From: Tribonema minus
Taxonomy: Eukaryota > Sar > Xanthophyceae > Tribonematales > Tribonemataceae
DNA: 64,000 bases
Reading direction: 5' to 3'
NCBI GenBank assembly: GCA_017506865.1
Contig: JAFCMP010000223.1
Span: 1,922,001 to 1,986,000 of the forward strand
A program made the translations under genes and the position numbers. The notes beneath the pieces were generated by a model. The model saw nothing but the letters and a program-made list of their open reading frames with translations. It searched no databases and had not been told where the DNA came from. Of this stretch, positions 17,101 through 30,498 are shown in pieces (within the stretch, counting starts at the first letter, position 1; each line of letters starts with the position of its first letter).

Positions 17101-17899
17101 TGCGTGCGCAGCATAGTCCGATGGCAGGGCGTACAGCAATGGCGACACGCAGCATTGACCCCGGAGAGGAAGCCGCACGCAACAACGGCAGATATACGGG
17201 GCATACAAGCGGCGATGGTGAGACACACAATGCTGGCAGCTGTGTCGCAATATGCAACGGCGGAGGCAAGGCATACAGCTATGCTGTGCTGCGTGATGAT
17301 GAGGTCAGGACGCGTGATGTGGTTGTGCCACGCGGCGGGGAGAACTATGTACAGCCGATGGCACACACCGCAGTTATGCGGCAGAAGGCACATGGTGACG
17401 TGGTGACGGGTGGGATTCGAGGACAAGGAGCCTAACGCAACAGGGGAAGTCGGCGGCAGTAGCGGAGTACAAGCGGTGCCACAGAGAGCAATGTTGCGTA
17501 CACCGGCGTACGCATCAAGGACTAGAGCTCGGGCGACAGTCGCCACTGAGGAGGTTGTGGTGTCCAGCAATCGGGCTCATGTGCGCAGGTGGCGGCTCAC
17601 TGCGGACTTGATGGGTTGCTCACACCGCAGCGGGGCAGCTTGCAGCAGGCAGGACTTGGCGGAGTGCCCAAGGAGGAGATTGCTCTCAGCTAACATTACA
17701 ATTGTGGCTCAGCAAGCAGACCTGTTGCTGGCGGCGATAGTCGCACACCTCAAGGGCGGCGTGATGCTGCTCTCCTCACTACGCAGGTCAGGGAAGTGCA
17801 TGCGGCCAACTGTCATTTTTTTTTATGTGCTGACCGGAGGGTCATACGGGTTAGTGGAGCTCAGTACCGCCGACGCCTGAGGCGGCAAGGAGAGAAGGC
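17101..17899. other. Tail of gene A region, no recognised gene
   Basis: Two stop-poor frames cover it (16950-17435 and 17410-17880). Their composition resembles the preceding Ser/Gly-rich repeats, but no repeat unit is clear. It ends at the right inverted arm. Confidence 0.35.
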
Positions 17900-19158
17900 G
17901 GTGCCGGAGGAGGACAGCCTGAGGTGTTGAGGGGTGGTTGTGCCTTAGACACTTGTAGGAGCCGTTGGCGTACAACAGTTCTTGTTTTGACCGCAAGTCT
18001 GGCGAGGTTGCTTGACGCTAGAGCAAGAGATAACACGTGAGTTAAAGTGTCGCATGCCTGGCATGCAAGCTATGGCAACAAGGCAACATGCCGGAGCGTG
18101 GTCTTGGCGTTGGCGGGGGGCAAAAGGAGGAGCCCGTCTCTGTCATGGGGGGGTAGTTATTAGTGGGCCGTTTCCAACTATATACGCGGGTAGCAGGAGC
18201 ATGCTTGTTTTCACCGGCTATCTGGCTCGGTGGTGGGGGCAATCGGATGTCAGGGCTCACGTTAGTGTAGGCGGCACAGCGTCTGGCGATGTCGTTACAC
18301 GATACGGAGTGCCGTAGCTTCTCTGACTGCTTACCCGTAGTCGCTATGGGCATCAAGCGGGTTTTCAAAATGTGCAAAAGGGCACATGGTGTAGCTTAGC
18401 AATGAGCTTAGCAATGTCTGGCCACACACCCATTCCACGCGGCCAAGTGCAGGAGGATGTCGTCATCATGCAGTTAACGCCTGGATTCTCTGGCTGCTGG
18501 TTGCTCAGCGTCTGGAGCGAGACCGGGGTCTGGGGGTACCAAGAGGTTGGTCGCGACCCTTAGCGTGGTGCGACGGACTACACAACTGGGCTGCCACCCC
18601 AGCCTAGGACATGGGGGGGGGTGTTGTTTGTGCGTTTGCGCGAGCGCAGTGCGTCGGCACCGGCCATTGTGCTGTATGCGTTTTCTGCTTCTGTTTTGCA
18701 GCAAGGTATTAGGTGTAACGGATCATTTGCACGTGATGTGAGAACATCCAGTGATGCACAGCACATGCATATTGCTTGTACCGCTGCAGGTTGTGCATGG
18801 GTGCAGAGAGCACCATGCAGGGGGGGTATGTGGCAGCGGTAGGCTGAAGTGTGCAACAATGCATGTTGAGCACTGTGGCAACAGTTGAAGTTGAAATCAA
18901 ACTTCAAGTTGAAGTTGAAGTTTGACAAGTGTTGAAGTTGAGGTTGTGCAATGTTCAACACACTCCCAGTAAATGTTGAGACTGATCTGGAGTGGATGCT
19001 CAGCGGGCCGCGCTGAGCAATGCTGCATGCATGTCGTCTGGATAATAATCACTGAACACCCAAAATCATGGAATGAAGACTTCTTCTTGTTCAGCCACGG
19101 AGCTTGCTTGGATCGCTGTCATGACTTGACAGCACACTTCATGGGCCCAAGGCCACAG
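17900..19158 (-). repeat. Right arm of the 1.26-kb inverted repeat; copy 4 of the terminal repeat family
   Basis: Reverse complement of 2277-3560, ending ...CCCAAGGCCACAG at 19158. Landmarks in both arms are CTACACAACTGGGCTG next to a C/G run, GCACGTGATGTGAGAACATC, the GTTGAAGTTGAAG array and GACTTGACAGCACACTTC. The C18 run of the left arm is here only G8, so homopolymer length is unstable. Small indels and substitutions separate the arms. Confidence 0.75.
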
Positions 19159-20603: not shown

Positions 20604-22430
20604 CACACGCGCGAGCGCAGGGCAGCAATGGGGTTTTGACAGTGGTCGACGACACAAGTGTCTCAACAAATCCGCGCACCGCATCATGCAGCCCCAGCAG
20701 CAGCAGCTGCCACAGCGTGACACGGCTCAGCGACGATGGCAGCACTCAGCTAGCACTGGTAATGGCGATTCAACAGTGCTCAACGGCGGTGAGGGCATTT
20801 CTGAGCAGTGGAGCGCCTCGTGCAACAACATCTGCGAAACAGCAGTGCTCAGCAGTGATGGCAGCACGTGTGTGCCGCACAGCTTGGAAGGCAGCGATGT
20901 TGACCTCGCACCAGCGCCCTGCGATGTGATGCCTGCAGCCACCACGCACTCTGTCTGCAGAGAGAATATTTGTGCTGCCTTGGCAGCCAGCGCGGACATT
21001 CGCTCTGTGCTCTCAAATCCAACAGGCGACAGTGGCACAGGCATGGTTACACGACCTGGTGTCGATTATGACGGTGTCCGTGACGGCTTTGCTGGGGTCA
21101 GCATCAGCATGGCAGCTCAGTCGACACAATGACGTCGGATGCCAACAGCAGCAGAACTGATAAGGAGGACAGACCTGCAGTGCTCAACATCAATAGCGAA
21201 ACGAAACCCATGCTGAGCCTTGCGACACTGAGCAGCTGCATGGTCAAACTCACATGTCACAGCAATGATGGTGATGCTGCCCATGGGGTTCAGCATGCAG
21301 CAGCTGGAAGCGGCCGCGACATGGCAACTGACGACCACGGCTCTGGCACTACACTCATCATTGCTGCAACGGAGCCACCTGCAGCTGGGTGCGCCTCCAA
21401 GTACTTTAGTCGCAAAAGGCGCCATCATCTCGCAGCAGTGGTGCCAGATACTGCAGCAGGCAGTGTAGCCATTGTGGGATGCTCGGACATTTGGTGGCCC
21501 GGTGCTGAAAGCTGCATTCACAGCTGCGACGCAAAGCTTCACATGCGCAGACGGCATCAACGGCAACAGCGTCCGGGGTGCCGCCTTCAGCGGCTCAACC
21601 TGTCACAAAGCGTCACGGTGGTGGCAACACACACACAGGCATCCTGCTGGTGCGCGTCTACGTGCTTCAGTTGCCTCAAAGAGTTCAGCAGGTGTATGCA
21701 GTCATACAGCCAGCAAGGAGGAGCGTGCTTTACGCAATCAGGTTGCAGGACTCAAACAGGATCAGCATGCTGCTGTCTCAATCGCTTGGCGGGATTGGAG
21801 AGCCGGGAAAAGGAGTCTTCTGCAGATGCGCTTGCGGCATCTTGCGGCAGTGGGCGGCAGTCAACAGCCTTCCGCGCTGCGCTTCAGGCGATTGTGGAGC
21901 TTTGTCAGCAGCTGCTGGCAGGTGCCGCATATTCAACGTCAAAAGTGGCTTTGCTCAGCACTGCGCTTGCGGACGGGCGCAGTGGCGTGACGGCACCAGC
22001 ATGCGGCAGCAGTAGCAGTGGCAGCAGCAGCACAGTGTGTGGTGGAGTCAAGCCTAGCACCATCAACTCTGAGCAATGCCACACAGGTGCGCGCAGGGTG
22101 TTGGGGCCAACGGCAATGACATTCACGCAAGGTTGGTCAAGGCAAGTGTCGCGACGTCTGGGCAGAGAAAAGTGGCCGCACTGCAGCTGGTGCTCGTGTA
22201 AACACGGTTCAGCCAACAGTGGCTGAGCAGGTGCCACAGTGTCTTCAAGGAAGCCCGCAGCTGCTGCTGGCTCCTTGCATGCAGATGACACGCTTCCTGC
22301 AGCTGTCACCACCTTTGACAGCAAAGCACACAGGCGACATTGCAGAGAGCGTGACAACGCGACAGTAACGGCTCGCTGTGGCGTATCACGCGGCACTGCA
22401 GTAAGGCACTTTCATTCACAGCTAAGGGCC
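20604..22430 (+). pseudogene. Gene B, C-terminal Ser/Cys/Ala-rich region
   Basis: Low-complexity, stop-poor sequence like the tail of gene A but shorter. Frames 20686-21132 and 21129-22226 carry units such as SSDGSTCVPHSLEGSDVDL and CHSNDGDAAHGVQHAAAGS. It ends about 90 bp before terminal repeat copy 5 at 22521. Frame changes make an intact product unlikely without splicing. Confidence 0.4.
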
Positions 22431-22860: not shown

Positions 22861-23186
22861 ACACAACCGGCAGCGGTCAATGACTCCTCTATTTTTCTTG
22901 TGCATGCCTTCACGCAGCAACTGTATGAACAACCGCATGTGCGCAAAACTCTCCATGGCGCACTGGCAGACATCACTGTGAAAAGAGCAGGCACCACATG
23001 CAGCAGCAATTGTGCAAGGCCGCATCCGCACGAACTAGTTGCACTAAGGCTAGTCACAGACTGCCCAGAGACGGCAAAACACGCTTCCCCCCCCATCGCT
23101 GCGTCAGTGCAAGGGCTGGTTATGGCGCTGTGCGTCTGCTCCTCTCAAGGCTACACCCAAAACTGCTAGCACCGCTTTTGGCCACT
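22861..23186. other. No gene recognised
   Basis: Sequence between terminal repeat copy 5 and the direct repeat at 23187. No coding pattern stands out on either strand. Confidence 0.5.
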
Positions 23187-23362
23187 GTGCTACTGCCCGC
23201 CCGCCTGCAAACACAAATGCAGGATGTACACTACTTCTACCCTCTGTCTGCTGCTGTTGCAACTGTGGCTGGTGATATGTACTGCTGCAGCAGTCCCGCA
23301 CACCGCGTGACAAACCCCCCGTGCCTGCCCCCCCCCCCCCCCCCCCCCCCCCCGCCCCCCCC
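23187..23362 (+). repeat. Left member of a direct repeat flanking the Fanzor locus
   Basis: Begins GTGCTACTGCCCGCCCGCCT and shares GCAAACACAAATG, AGGATGTACACTACTTCTAC, CTGTCTGCTGCT, GTGGCTGGTGA and ACCCCCCGTGCCTG with 30301-30498, then runs into C26. Copies lie in the same orientation on both sides of the Fanzor gene. Confidence 0.75.
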
Positions 23363-23396
23363 CGGCTGCATGACCTCCATACTGCCCCTCATGCCA

Positions 23397-26300
23397 TTAT
23401 GGCATCCCCCTCTTCATCGACCCCCTCCTCGTCACCACCGCCCTCCCCGTCATCGACGCCCCCCCCCCCCCATCACCGCCCTCGTCGCCGTCGCCGCCCT
23501 CCTCGCCGTCCTCGTCCTCGTCGTCTCCCTCGTCGCCGTCCTCCTCATCGTCGTCCTCCCCGTCGCTTTCCTCCTCCTCTTCTTGATCCGCCGGGACATA
23601 CCCCGGGATGATGTCATCGACGCCGCACGTGGCATAGACGCCGCGCATGCCAAGGTTGGCCCGCGCATTGGTGTCGCGGTCGATGACAGCAACCCCCCCC
23701 TCCGCCGCCTGAGTGAGAGCGCAGTTCTCGTTCCGGCAAACCCTGTTTCTGTGCCCAAACTCATTGCCGCCGCCCCGCGTGGGCTGTCCACACACCAGGC
23801 ACGAGGCGGAACTGTATGGCTGTAGCGTCATCAATGTCGGACACCGGCAGGCCAGCTGCGCCACCAATTTCTTGATGGGAGTGGCGGCACGGCCGCCGGC
23901 GGGGAAGCGCGCACATGCGCCGAAGAAGATGATTCGACGGGGCCTCCTGTGCGTGTCGCGCCACCTCCTGTGCCTGCGCCTGCGCCGTGGATACTCGCGG
24001 CCGCGGGACCGCACACGCTTTTATCCCGGGGGCCTGTGCTGCAGCCGAATTGGGGCCAGCTTTTCTGCCATCTTGGCAATGGCAGCCTGCTGCGCACGGA
24101 AGCGGCTGAACCTCTGATGCCGTCGTGCTGGGTGCAGCAGCTCTCCCCACATGGCATCTGCATGGTGCCCCCAAGTGGTGCAGTAGGCGCGTAGCACCTG
24201 CAATGATGCAGCCACCAGGACGGGCACCATGTGTACACAGAGCGGAATGAGTGGGGGCTACCATTACAGTGGGGGCAGGCCCTGGGGTAGAGTCACGTGA
24301 GGGCCCACCGCATCAGATTGTAGAGGACATACTATGTACCATTACAAAAGCCCCAAGGCTTCTTCTCCCACTGTCAAAGCTCTGGGCAGCGAATCACAAT
24401 CATTGGCTCTACGCAACATTCATACATCATGTGCACCAGAATGAGTGAATGACAGGCCCTTGGTGAGGTATGCCATTGATCTTGAGATCCACAAGGCTTT
24501 CAATGGCAGCAGCAAGGAACATATGAATGCACACATCACTCCAGACTTTCAAACTTTGATGCGCTTCTGTAATTGTAGCAGTCACGTGGCACTTGCTGAG
24601 ACGACGACAAATACGGTCACGTCCAACCGTCATGATGTCATGTGCTCGCTCCCATTGTGCATCGAGATAGACAGCAGTGGGCCCTTGCGCACTGTTGAAC
24701 CAGTATAACACAAGGCAAGAGCATGCATGTATGCACACTCATGCAAGAGCCTGCGGTGCTGGCTCAAGACAACACAAGGCCCGGTGCTGCTGCAGTGCCC
24801 GACAATTCTTACCTGATAGCGGCCCGTGCGCGTGTGCCTGTCCGCGAGCGCCGCGAGTGCATCGCTGTACGCCTGGTTGGCCCCGCGGCGTTGCGCCTCC
24901 CCCTGCTCATTGCGGACAGACTGTGCCCATACGCGGTACTCCGCCCCTGACACCTCCTGCGCCGTTACGCCCTCGCCCTCTGGGGGCGGATTTGCTGCAA
25001 AATCCGCGGCGCTATCGCGCCTCCAGCGCTGGCCAAGGGCAGTGACCGCACTGAAAGCCAGCACCTGGCCCGGGTCCACCCCAGTCACCACGACATGGTC
25101 CAGGGCGTGCAGCCGCTCCTGTGCAGCAGGGGTACTGTCCGCCACCGTAGCCGGCTCCGCCCCTATCTCCCTATGCACACGCTGGAGGCGGAACACCCCA
25201 TTGGGGCCTTCAGCCACCTCCCCCTCCAGCACATCCCCCAGCTCCTCATGGATGTACCCAACCTGTGACAGAAGAGAATGCAATGAACATGAGTGGAGGG
25301 GGGGGGGGGGTAACAGCAAGCTGTTGGGTGTACTATTGTCAGTCTGCCCATGAGGCGTACGCTATAGTACAGCACCATGACAATCGGCGGCCTCACCAAT
25401 GGCATGCTGATGGCATGCTGGAGTCACAAAGGTGAGGCTACACAGTGTCTGCATGCAGTCGACATTGAATTTTCACATCATATCCAGACTGTGTCGGCAT
25501 GCCATCGAGTCAGATTGCAAAATGGGACTTCATGGCGCAAGTATGACATATATCAATACCACAGTGGCAATGTTCATGATCGGCAAGAAAGCTGTTGAAT
25601 CAATTAATCAACCTATGATTGAATCAACGGACGCAACAGTTGTGACGCGCGCCCCTCACCAGGTTGCATCTGCAACTGCAACATATGTTGTAGAACTCCG
25701 AGCAGCTCCGCCTAATGCAGCATTTAACATCGAGACGGGTAGAAGTACCTGATTGATGAGCATTGCACAATGGATGATGATGACAGCAGACACTTTCTCT
25801 TTCAACCAGACATTCCTACGAGCTATCAGTAAACAATGTGTATAAAGCGCACCTGGTAGCCCCTCCGCGGCAGTTTGGTCAGGCCATGGGGGCCTTGGTG
25901 CGAGTCGTGGCTGGTGACCAGCAGAAGCTTGAGCTGGTGCCCATCGGTCATGAAGGTCCTGTCCACCAGCCACGGGGCCAGGATGCGGTACCCTGGTTGG
26001 CCGGCGCGCTCAATTGCCCGCATCACACCGCGCTCGCTCCGCGCATAGTGATTGGTGCGCTGCCGCATGGTGGTGATGTTGGCTGCCTTCGCCCATGGCT
26101 GCATGAACTCAGCATACCACCAGGGGCCCCGGCCGGCCATCCGCGCAGCAAGACCTGGAAACAGCTCGCCCATGCCGCTGCATATCAGTGGGGCAGCGCA
26201 TGACACAGCGACAACAAAAGCACATCATGGTGAGACACTGTCACCAATGTCACACTGCGACGCGATGGGTGCATACTGAAAGCATAAGACCAACCAACCG

Positions 26301-28390
26301 GTTTGAGCGTATGACAATCTCAATCAGTAGGCTAAGCGTGCTCATCCTGTCGACAGGCGCTACGCAGCGGGGCTATGCCTGCAGCCCTAGAGCACCCATA
26401 TGCGCACTGTCTCGCAGATGTCCAGGATCTTGAGGTAATCGGCGCCCTCCTGCACGTCTCCGTCATCGTCCAGCTCTGCACCCCTGAAGCCCAGCTGGTT
26501 GAGGCGTGCCTGCAGCTCCCCGTGCAAGTCGTTGCCGGCATAGGTGGTCGCCAGCTCAGCCAAGTCATGTACAGCCCTGGGAGCATCATGTGCAATCAAT
26601 TTGGCAAGGGGAAGTCCGTAAGTTGGGTGGCAAACAAGCACTGTCGCTCTGACTGTACTTGCAGGCCACATCCAAGCCTGGCTAGAAGGCCAAGTCAAGA
26701 ACATCCAGACTGCGGGTTGATTATTCTGAGCAGGCCATCACACATCAACTTTCTTGCATGTAGGGACAGAATAAGGCGCATACATGCAGCGTGTGGCTGA
26801 ACCAACAAGTAAGGTTGAAGTTGTCCACTACCACTTTGCTCAATGGCAAAAACAGCTGCCTGCTGCCATTTCCACCTCTGCCGAGCAGGGCTGGCGCAAG
26901 TGTGAATGCAGCCTGCACCCAGCCCTCTGTGCAGGTTACATCACGCCGAACATAGTGCACCACAAAAACAGCAGATATGTGAGCCGTTGAGACACCCGCA
27001 TCACTTGCACAAATGCCATGGTGCTGATGAGAGGATGCGAGCCGTTCCAGAAACTGCTTGCAAATGTATGCACAGTGAACCTTGTGAATACAGGCATTTA
27101 ACTAGGCATTTGCCGCCCACCTGGTGAACGGCCGCACAGTCATGTCGACTTGGGTGTGTGGGTCATCATCGTCGTTCATGATGTGCGCCCGCAGGGCTTG
27201 GAACAGGGCCCAGTATGTGATGGCCAGGCGCCGCCGCTGGAAGTGCACCTGTATGTACGTGCTGGCAACCGTTGCCATGTCCTTGGCCACATAGAGGAAG
27301 ACCTCATGCAGGCGCCAAGGCGCCCCGGGGGCCTGCAGGGCCTGCAGGTTGCTGTTGTTGCGCAGGTCCTGAAATCGTTGAAGCGTCGAGGCGGCAACTG
27401 CGCAACAGCAAGCACACGAGGAGCGCGCGTCACTCCACATGAACGAGTTGACCCCCTCGCACTGGCTTCCATGTGTTGACTTGGCGCTGTAGCCAGAGTA
27501 GCCAGCTGTGATGATCGCAGATTGATTGAGGGTTGCATGCTGGTCCATGCGAGTGTCAGTACCACTCGCACAGGTGACATCTCCAGGCACGTTGCGCAAG
27601 ACATTCCAGGTACTGTGAGGCTGTTGGCATACTGGTCGACAAGGTCATCATGTGCTGGATGGAAGGCTGCCTTCACGACACTGTTTGACAAGCATGCATG
27701 AATGGCTCACCATGCACATCCTTCTCAGATAAGGTCGTGAGCCATGCACGAACAACAAGTCATGCGACACTGCTGAAGTCCTGCGTGAGTTCCAACGCTG
27801 GTCAAAGTTATAGCTTGCGCCTGAGGCAGCAGCATGCGCTTTTTTTAAACGCAGAAACAGTCACTGTTGTTGCGCGGATGCGAAGGGAATAGCGATGCCC
27901 AGTGCACGCTACCGCTTCAAAGGCCACGCTGCGAAGAAGAGAAGACTTTGTTCTTGTACCTGAGCAGCTCCAGGTCCTGCTCCTTGCGTGTAACCTGCCC
28001 CCGCTCCTTGCACATAGCAGGTGAAACACTCCATGAAGAAGCGCTGCGTGGCATCAGGGAAGGGCTGTCCGAGATCTAGCTTCCAGGTGCAGATGTAGTT
28101 GGCCAGCAAGGAGGCCAGATGCCGCACCTTCCCCACGTAATCTGCAGCGTCCTGGAGTGTTTGGGCGATCTCAAGGCTAGGGTGCCGATGCAGGACCTTG
28201 CAAGGCTGCAAGAGACGGTCTTGTGCCTGAGCTTCACGCCTTGATCCGCTCCAGGGATGCGTCGCCTTCGCTCGAAGGTCCGCAACAGAGTCTCGTGCAG
28301 CCGGCGTGTGTGTGAGGGCTCATGCCCCTGGGCAGTATTCACCGCCGCCTGCCCGAACCTGTTGATGAGCCGCTCGACCAGGTCCGCCAT
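23397..28390 (-). CDS. Fanzor-type protein (eukaryotic TnpB homologue, candidate RNA-guided nuclease), probably inactivated
   Basis: Seven exons on the minus strand: 28390-28238, 28205-28014, 27368-27121, 26576-26408, 26177-25853, 25262-24813 and 24197-23397, about 770 codons. Diagnostic parts: a TDG motif (FMTDGHQLKLL, exon 5); RuvC-I Asp in VVVTGVDPGQV (exon 6); then in exon 7 an FFGACARFPAGG segment, a zinc ribbon (CLVCG ... CRNENC) and RuvC-III Asp in DRDTNARANLGMRG, followed by a strongly acidic tail. This order is that of Fanzor/TnpB nucleases, which use a guide RNA to cut DNA and travel with transposons. Oddities: an in-frame TAA at 24021-24023; Gln where Fanzors usually have a Glu before the zinc ribbon (LQPYSSASC); a 32-nt gap between exons 1 and 2; and phases that do not fit between exons 4 and 5. 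I am sure of the family, less of the first exons; it is probably a recent pseudogene. Confidence 0.85.
24021..24023 (-). other. In-frame TAA stop inside the Fanzor frame
   Basis: The frame of exon 7 is open from 24197 to 23397 except for this single codon, between RLQHRPPG and KRVRSRG. The conserved RuvC-II-like segment, zinc ribbon and RuvC-III lie downstream in the same frame. No GT donor sits between the conserved upstream helix and the stop, so a normal intron cannot remove it without losing that helix. Confidence 0.85.
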
Positions 28391-29006
28391 AATGTGAAAA
28401 TCGCTGCACCATGTGGAGGAGACGATACACAGAGACAGGCTGTGACTGATGGCGTGGGCTCATAATTAGGTACAGGTGGTGTGATCACGAGTCAAAGTGG
28501 ATGTACTGGGAGCTTGACACATGGGGTGCTGGGGCTGACAAATGGAAATTGCCACTTTCACAAAAATCCGCGAATCTCATTAATGGATACTATGCGAAAA
28601 AGCGATGCTGAATGCTGCACTGGCGATGCGATAAGATGATGCGATGCGATACGGATAGCGAAGAAGCCTCGCAAGCATGGCGACGTGTCCACACTTGAAA
28701 CGACGAGGATAATCGGTCGGACACTGCGGCCGTCGTGAGACACTGCAGCCCCAGGAGAACTAAAACATACTGTAGCGGCGAACACTGCACCGAAGTGGTG
28801 CACGAAGACAATGGGCGACAGCACCATCAGCAATTTATGACCTCAGCGAGTGCGCACCTGTCGTCTCTGTATCAGGCCGCACACCTAGGACACAGTTTAT
28901 CTTCCAGAACTGCGCGCTGAGAGTCACATCTTTCAAGTTGAGGGAGGGATATCCATCAAATCGATGGATTTCGGTTAACGCGTGTTGTGACTACAGCATC
29001 AGGTGT
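28391..29006. other. Upstream region of the Fanzor gene, no gene recognised
   Basis: About 600 bp between the first ATG of the Fanzor gene and the small repeat element at 29007. It may hold the promoter of the minus-strand gene, but I recognise no core element in it. Confidence 0.4.
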
Positions 29007-30107: not shown

Positions 30108-30165
30108 ACAATAGTGTCTTCATTATGGTATGCCACGACAGTGTCTTCATTATGAGGGTATGCCG
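30108..30165. repeat. Short tandem repeat of about 27 bp
   Basis: AGTGTCTTCATTATGGTATGC is followed by AGTGTCTTCATTATGAGGGT. A related AGTGTCTTCA occurs at the edge of the truncated integrase (about 31919). Confidence 0.6.
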
Positions 30166-30300
30166 TAGCAGGATCCTTGACCAGCGCAGACGTCGCGACG
30201 TCCTTTTGGTACTCAAGTTTCCTTGGTTAATCAAGGCCCGAAGGCACACCAGCCCAGAGATCTGGCGGCACAGAACGCCAATATGCGGCGGCAGAGCATT

Positions 30301-30498
30301 GTGCTACTGCCCGCCCGCCTGCAAACACAAATGTAGGATGTACACTACTTCTACTTGGCAAGGGGCATGAGGACTACAGTTACCCCTGTGTCTGCTGCTT
30401 TTGCAACAGTGGCTGGTGAAATGTACTGCTACGGTCCTACACACGAACCCCCCGTGCCTGTCCCCCCCGCGTAATCCCCCCCCCCCCCCCCCCCCCCC
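30301..30498 (+). repeat. Right member of the direct repeat flanking the Fanzor locus
   Basis: Same orientation and landmarks as 23187-23362, with about 30 extra bases after CTACTTCTAC (TTGGCAAGGGGCATGAGGAC...) and a C23 run at the end. Its spacing puts the whole Fanzor gene and its 1.9-kb upstream region between the two copies. Confidence 0.75.

Follow-up and report, generated by a model that had tools for sequence, protein, structure and literature searches.

We analyzed a 64,000-nucleotide (nt) stretch of the Tribonema minus genome (contig JAFCMP010000223.1, positions 1,922,001 to 1,986,000 of the forward strand), referred to as a whole as the window, and found on its minus strand, from 28390 to 23397, the remains of a Fanzor1 gene in six exons lying inside a repeated element. 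Taken together, the results indicate that the locus is very probably a degenerate member of a family of Fanzor1 genes that contain introns and are present in many copies on a mobile element of a eukaryotic genome. An original prediction, made by reading the window, had recognized segments with the motifs TDG, GVDPG, CxxC...CxxxxC, and DRDTNARAN, and these were indeed located on the minus strand in the order given there.

In the gene model predicted from borders conserved across copies, the start ATG lies at 28390 and the final stop codon at 23399-23397, and the exons are joined into one gene by GT/AG borders kept across the aligned copies. The alignment of copies gave six exons, in place of the "at least seven" counted previously. 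The end of exon 1 is uncertain because a candidate alternative donor, identified by reading the sequence, is located slightly upstream in the same phase. The features of the locus, all on the minus strand, are as follows.

23183 to 28943, minus strand: span of the Fanzor-bearing repeat copy, from genome comparison of copies
27960 to 28390, minus strand: exon 1, with the ATG at 28390 and a private 1-nt deletion, from the copy alignment
27121 to 27368, minus strand: exon 2, from the copy alignment
26404 to 26576, minus strand: remainder of exon 3 (173 of 426 nt), from the copy alignment
25853 to 26177, minus strand: exon 4, holding the TDG motif, from the copy alignment
24813 to 25262, minus strand: exon 5, with GVDPG of RuvC-I (aspartate, Asp, codon at 25076-25074), from the copy alignment
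23397 to 24197, minus strand: exon 6, with the remaining RuvC region, the zinc ribbon CxxC...CxxxxC, DRDTNARAN, an acidic tail, and the stop, from the copy alignment
24021 to 24023, minus strand: in-frame TAA in exon 6, a sense codon in other copies
23820 to 23822, minus strand: codon of the repositioned RuvC-II glutamate (Glu), which is CAG (glutamine, Gln) in the window, from comparison of copies
30147 to 30498, minus strand: separate fragment, the 3' end of a related element, located upstream of the gene copy and outside the gene, from genome comparison

The shared 3' terminus of the element, which lies approximately 145 nt beyond 23183 in other copies, is absent from the window copy.

Copies in the genome and lesions of the window copy

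A search with a 5.2-kb region of the window as the query (40 of 125 candidates scored) identified at least 94 matching stretches in the same genome, including the window, and those longer than 1 kb were 83-98% identical to the window region. Thirteen other copies, several of them partial, were read and aligned to the window; for six of them two overlapping loci were used, and for the other seven a single locus. The copy on contig C224 was open from the ATG to the stop through all six exons (984 codons), and the copy C9a had an open frame until other sequence replaced its 3' end. The copies C40a, C97a, C71a, and C537a, which reach exon 6, were damaged by stops, frameshifts, an altered splice site, or an interruption. 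Stops were not confined to the window copy, as other members of the family had stops of their own; a further search concerning these stops and a piece at locus L027 scored 150 of 215 candidates. The L027 piece (C97, approximately 198.6-199.2 kb) belongs to a second Fanzor family, with an exon 6 that is 51% identical, and is placed in divergent orientation beside a window-family copy, at the 5' end of that copy.

The original prediction had described a single stop in an otherwise open frame and had offered two explanations, namely a very recent pseudogene or a TAA that is read through or decoded. The frame was wrongly described as otherwise open, because exon 1 has lost 1 nt and exon 3 has lost both 253 nt and the splice donor. 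In exon 1, the base absent between 28200 and 28199 was present in 8 of 8 other readable copies, and this deletion, private to the window copy, shifts the reading frame. In exon 3, a deletion at 26404/26403 removed 253 of the 426 nt together with the 5' splice site, and the deleted segment was present in all 12 of the other readable copies, one of which had an 11-nt loss inside it. A second deletion in the window, of approximately 219 nt, was found within intron 3. As judged by its sequence, the window copy is a pseudogene that cannot make the protein, because it combines the frameshift in exon 1, the loss of most of exon 3 and the donor, the stop in exon 6, and Gln in place of the catalytic Glu. 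The pseudogene proposed earlier is thus retained, while a pseudogene with one stop as its only defect is not.

Exon 6 has an open frame of 58 codons before the TAA and 207 codons after it, which would be expected if the TAA were translated, by readthrough or under a reassigned code, and the gene were functional. We consider this explanation extremely improbable, since all 11 of the other copies that are readable at 24023-24021 had a sense codon there (TGG in 10 and ATG in 1; in one of the 11, which has a frameshift upstream, the codon was assigned by alignment) and since exons 1 and 3 of the window copy are broken regardless of the TAA. The absence of a stop from all of these copies rules out decoding at this site. 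The comparison with other copies in the same genome that had been proposed as a check yielded many copies and settles the TAA as a lesion of the window copy; as read from the aligned copies, it is damage to a single copy, not a sign of a new genetic code, and a false lead is thereby removed.

Homology and motifs of the probable Fanzor1 protein

The spliced protein of the open C224 copy aligned with L067 over 848 columns (32% identity, 300 bits), and the alignment was collinear over the length of the protein. L067 is an open reading frame (ORF) in an intronless 951-aa frame of the same genome (C379:867200-871600), and adjoins a DDE_Tnp_1 transposase ORF (E 3.3e-14), which we take to stand for the IS4 type. 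The same spliced protein scored 72 bits against L006, an intronless ORF that matched PF07282 at 30 bits (cut-off 26.3) and matched guided_TnpB at E 2.7e-5, well below the cut-off of that model. In the shuffle control (300 each), the best scores were 28.5 bits for L067 and 26.2 bits for L006. The window itself, with no read-through, gave 79.7 bits for exon 4 and 74.7 bits for the part of exon 6 past the stop, both against L067. The alternative that the motif-bearing exons belong to separate genes was rejected, as they are collinear with one intronless ORF.

The motifs were also identified across the family. GVDPG was present in 11 of the 13 copies with exon 5 read, including the window; one of the others had GVDPV and one was out of frame. 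In the open copy, the relevant residues were D540, E753, SS756-757, C760/C763, C781/C786, and RD at 801-802, and they agree with the Fanzor1 signature D-X(125,275)-[TS][TS]-X-X-C4 zinc finger-X(5,50)-RD, as given in PMC3627910. PMC10711439 describes a Fanzor1 fingerprint in which RuvC-I reads DPG and the catalytic Glu has moved to a position six residues ahead of the zinc finger; the family copies that have Glu showed both features. It also gives a search pattern for TnpB-like relatives, DPG-x(120-160)-E-x6-CxxC-x(12-18)-CxxC-x(4-8)-D, which is not a definition of Fanzor1 (PMC10711439).

Several results weigh against the assignment. The spliced open-copy protein had no Pfam match (E up to 1) and no NCBIfam match (E up to 0.1), and its best match in the PDB was a Cas12f zinc ribbon at E 0.79; neither a 5-sequence profile nor window exon 5 nor L006 matched any PDB entry. 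Alone, window exons 2 and 5 scored only 31.2 and 23.1 bits against L067, and the window pieces reached no more than 42.7 bits against L006 (exon 6, 42.7; exon 5, 30.8; exon 4, 16.5; exon 2, 14.2). Additionally, the family has CxxxxC as its second zinc pair where the search pattern of PMC10711439 has CxxC, and the spacings from Asp to Glu and from the zinc finger to the last Asp exceed those of that pattern. Seven window pieces compared with Pfam likewise gave nothing above the cut-offs. The original prediction had named the lack of a profile hit to Fanzor or TnpB as grounds for abandoning it, and a direct Pfam or NCBIfam match was in fact not obtained; nevertheless, the chain of homology through the relatives outweighs the missing match. 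The gene is very probably of the Fanzor1 type, because it shows collinear homology, because some members of the family combine DPG with the repositioned Glu, and because one relative passes PF07282; the Fanzor identity suggested earlier is supported to this extent. Collinearity of the protein with the L067 and L006 type, together with its six exons, led us to set Fanzor2 aside; no search for an IS607 recombinase was made.

Intact relatives of the window copy would act as RNA-guided DNA endonucleases whose RuvC site is made up of the Asp of GVDPG, the Glu repositioned six residues ahead of the zinc finger, and the Asp of RD. If they work as the characterised Fanzors do, they would cut DNA in partnership with a non-coding RNA that the element supplies.

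The giant-virus capsid family had ten matches in the genome, on contigs C40, C112, C179, C90, C21, C223, C144, C485, and C541. In particular, C90, C112, and C179 carried capsid matches together with intronless Fanzor ORFs (loci L002, L003, and L006-L008), which suggests the presence of integrated giant-virus DNA. Two capsid matches were located on the contig of the window, 0.97 and 1.27 Mb away, and none was on C379, the contig of L067, among the matches listed. In a separate search of viral contigs, three queries returned 51, 49, and 7 pattern-matching stretches, none of which was confirmed.

Glutamine at the catalytic glutamate

The codon of the repositioned Glu was readable in 25 copies, of which 17, including the window, had CAG (Gln) and eight had GAG (Glu). 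These copies derive from 41 loci, of which eight were second looks; 27 of the remaining 33 matched the exon-6 core. There was no exon-6 match in C224_1043k, C224_920k, C190_255k, C224_849k, C540_117k, and C334_1908k, and exon 6 matched but gave no codon in C41_314k and C41_358k. The proportion of 17 to 8 is biased in favor of Gln, because the queries that recovered the loci were themselves of the Gln type (the window, and an end sequence from two Gln copies). Glu was present in L067, L006, L007, and L068, as well as in the pieces of other families in L027 and L069. The codon of the last Asp was GAC in 26 of 27 copies, and the GAA of C212_227k is perhaps an alignment slip.

For the tree and the exon-6 comparison of nonsynonymous and synonymous substitution rates (dN/dS), rows with fewer than 450 of 618 bases were excluded (C525_120k, C57_613k, C41_314k, and C41_358k), leaving 16 Gln and 7 Glu copies. 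In the tree of these 23 copies, built without the Glu/Gln codon, 15 of the 16 Gln rows grouped together with support of 93/95, which is short of the tool's own mark for firm support. The best tree counts two Glu/Gln changes, and one change suffices in 48% of the bootstrap trees. The least different pair on separate contigs differed by 1.0% among the Gln rows and by 4.2% among the Glu rows.

Divergence by codon position was compared for seven Gln and four Glu copies of the 13 aligned, with a bootstrap that assumes independent sites and ignores the tree. Within the Gln copies, the difference at positions 1+2 was 0.53 times that of introns (95% interval 0.42-0.64) and 0.60 times that of position 3 (0.47-0.79); within the Glu copies, the corresponding values were 0.46 (0.35-0.58) and 0.73 (0.52-1.03). 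Pairwise dN/dS was 0.42 in exons 1-5 and 0.53 in exon 6 within the Gln copies, and 0.40 and 0.52, respectively, within the Glu copies. In the four closest Gln copies, dN/dS of exon 6 was 1.16. Based on the codon-position ratios and these dN/dS values, including that of the closest copies, the Gln gene seems to have been under constraint for some time, and its most recent copies may be in decay.

Given the function of this residue, the change from Glu to Gln would be expected to stop cleavage. The Gln copies might represent a natural nuclease-dead Fanzor1 sub-lineage that spread on and was kept under selection for RNA-guided DNA binding, and the frequency of Gln where relatives have Glu, the grouping of the Gln rows, their lower divergence at positions 1+2, and the closeness of the pair at 1.0% are consistent with this. 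We nonetheless regard it as unlikely: the frequency is biased by the queries, the branch lacks firm support and a single origin is recovered in about half of the bootstrap trees, the intervals on the codon-position ratios carry the simplifications given above, and the ratio of 1.16 points away from selection in the closest copies. Furthermore, of the Gln copies followed across the six exons, none was free of defects, and a passenger gene is able to spread without function.

Should the Gln copies prove to bind DNA but not to cut it, they would be a counterpart of the TldR proteins, which have lost nuclease activity. TldRs are relatives of TnpB that act as RNA-guided regulators in bacteria, according to PMC13418256; the Gln copies are known from sequence alone. 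A natural Glu-to-Gln Fanzor lineage was not found in the titles and abstract starts among the open-licence papers listed on dead Fanzors, and we stop short of calling it unpublished. The window holds a dead copy of an already known kind of gene, and it is the Gln copies that merit further attention. If they were both selected and inactive, they would constitute a natural dead Fanzor, and natural sequences could be used to test it.

The carrier element and its 3' end

The copies end at a common 3' terminus consisting of a hairpin followed by a short tail, and at least 40 such ends were found (40 of 60 candidates scored). A 17-nt pattern from this end, allowing up to two mismatches, occurred at 128 places, compared with four for the reversed control. 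A breakpoint inside the locus was identified in 12 of 30 loci, at differing points. Chlamydomonas reinhardtii contains the Fanzor1 families CRe-1, CRe-2, and CRe-3, which are intron-bearing, borne on elements, and decaying, as described in PMC3627910. Like them, the window family has a Fanzor1 gene over several exons in many copies, often 5'-truncated or with internal deletions, with 3' ends kept, and non-autonomous (PMC3627910), and the hairpin and short tail at its common 3' end agree with the CRe type of Helitron2.

These resemblances tip the balance slightly toward a Helitron2-type non-autonomous element, as in the Chlamydomonas families, as the carrier. Helitron replicase genes do exist in the genome, where Helitron_like_N (PF14214) gave 15 matches, 14 of them over the cut-off, but no replicase gene was near a 3' end of the element among the matches listed of the pattern search. 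No target-site duplication flush with both ends was found in the 12 breakpoint-mapped loci and four longer copies, and the words shared across the ends of these 16 copies reached up to 7 nt only. The carrier class is not settled, because a clear target-site duplication was lacking in these 16 copies. In addition, some of the 12 breakpoints are internal deletions and not truncations, as in L032 and L046, where the 5' part continues beyond the breakpoint. The CRe type is further characterized by a 5' hairpin, asymmetric terminal inverted repeats, and a T-rich target or variable target-site duplications; in the window family, the 5' terminus and asymmetric terminal repeats are not settled.

The window family differs from CRe-1, CRe-2, and CRe-3 in having six exons, where PMC3627910 gives five or ten (a comparison by description, not by sequence), and in having no target-site duplications found and Gln at the catalytic Glu in most readable copies. 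IS4-type elements that carry Fanzor1 are also reported from Ectocarpus and from its virus (PMC3627910). L067, the closest intronless relative found, resembles these in adjoining a transposase ORF; it is a separate element on C379, and the window family, with which no transposase was seen, has introns. Within one genome, Fanzor1 relatives that lack introns, located next to a transposase ORF or on contigs with capsid matches, occur together with an intron-bearing, amplified relative, which makes this genome useful for studying the acquisition of introns by Fanzors and their changes of carrier.

The last 190 nt of the element differed by 4.0% in eight copies, compared with 6.5% for the introns of those copies, and some 50-nt blocks of the last approximately 200 nt differed by just 1-3%. 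These eight copies came from the search with the 5.2-kb region, and the start of exon 6 was also little diverged in them. In an earlier run on divergence at the 3' end, the loci had been chosen by that end, so that low divergence there is biased, and the far columns include unrelated flank. The RNA fold of the 3' end was not unusual (z -1.41). The low divergence could reflect either a transposon end or a guide RNA.

Outside the gene copy, window positions 17651-19157 and 21644-22122 are additional stretches in common with the C479 locus.

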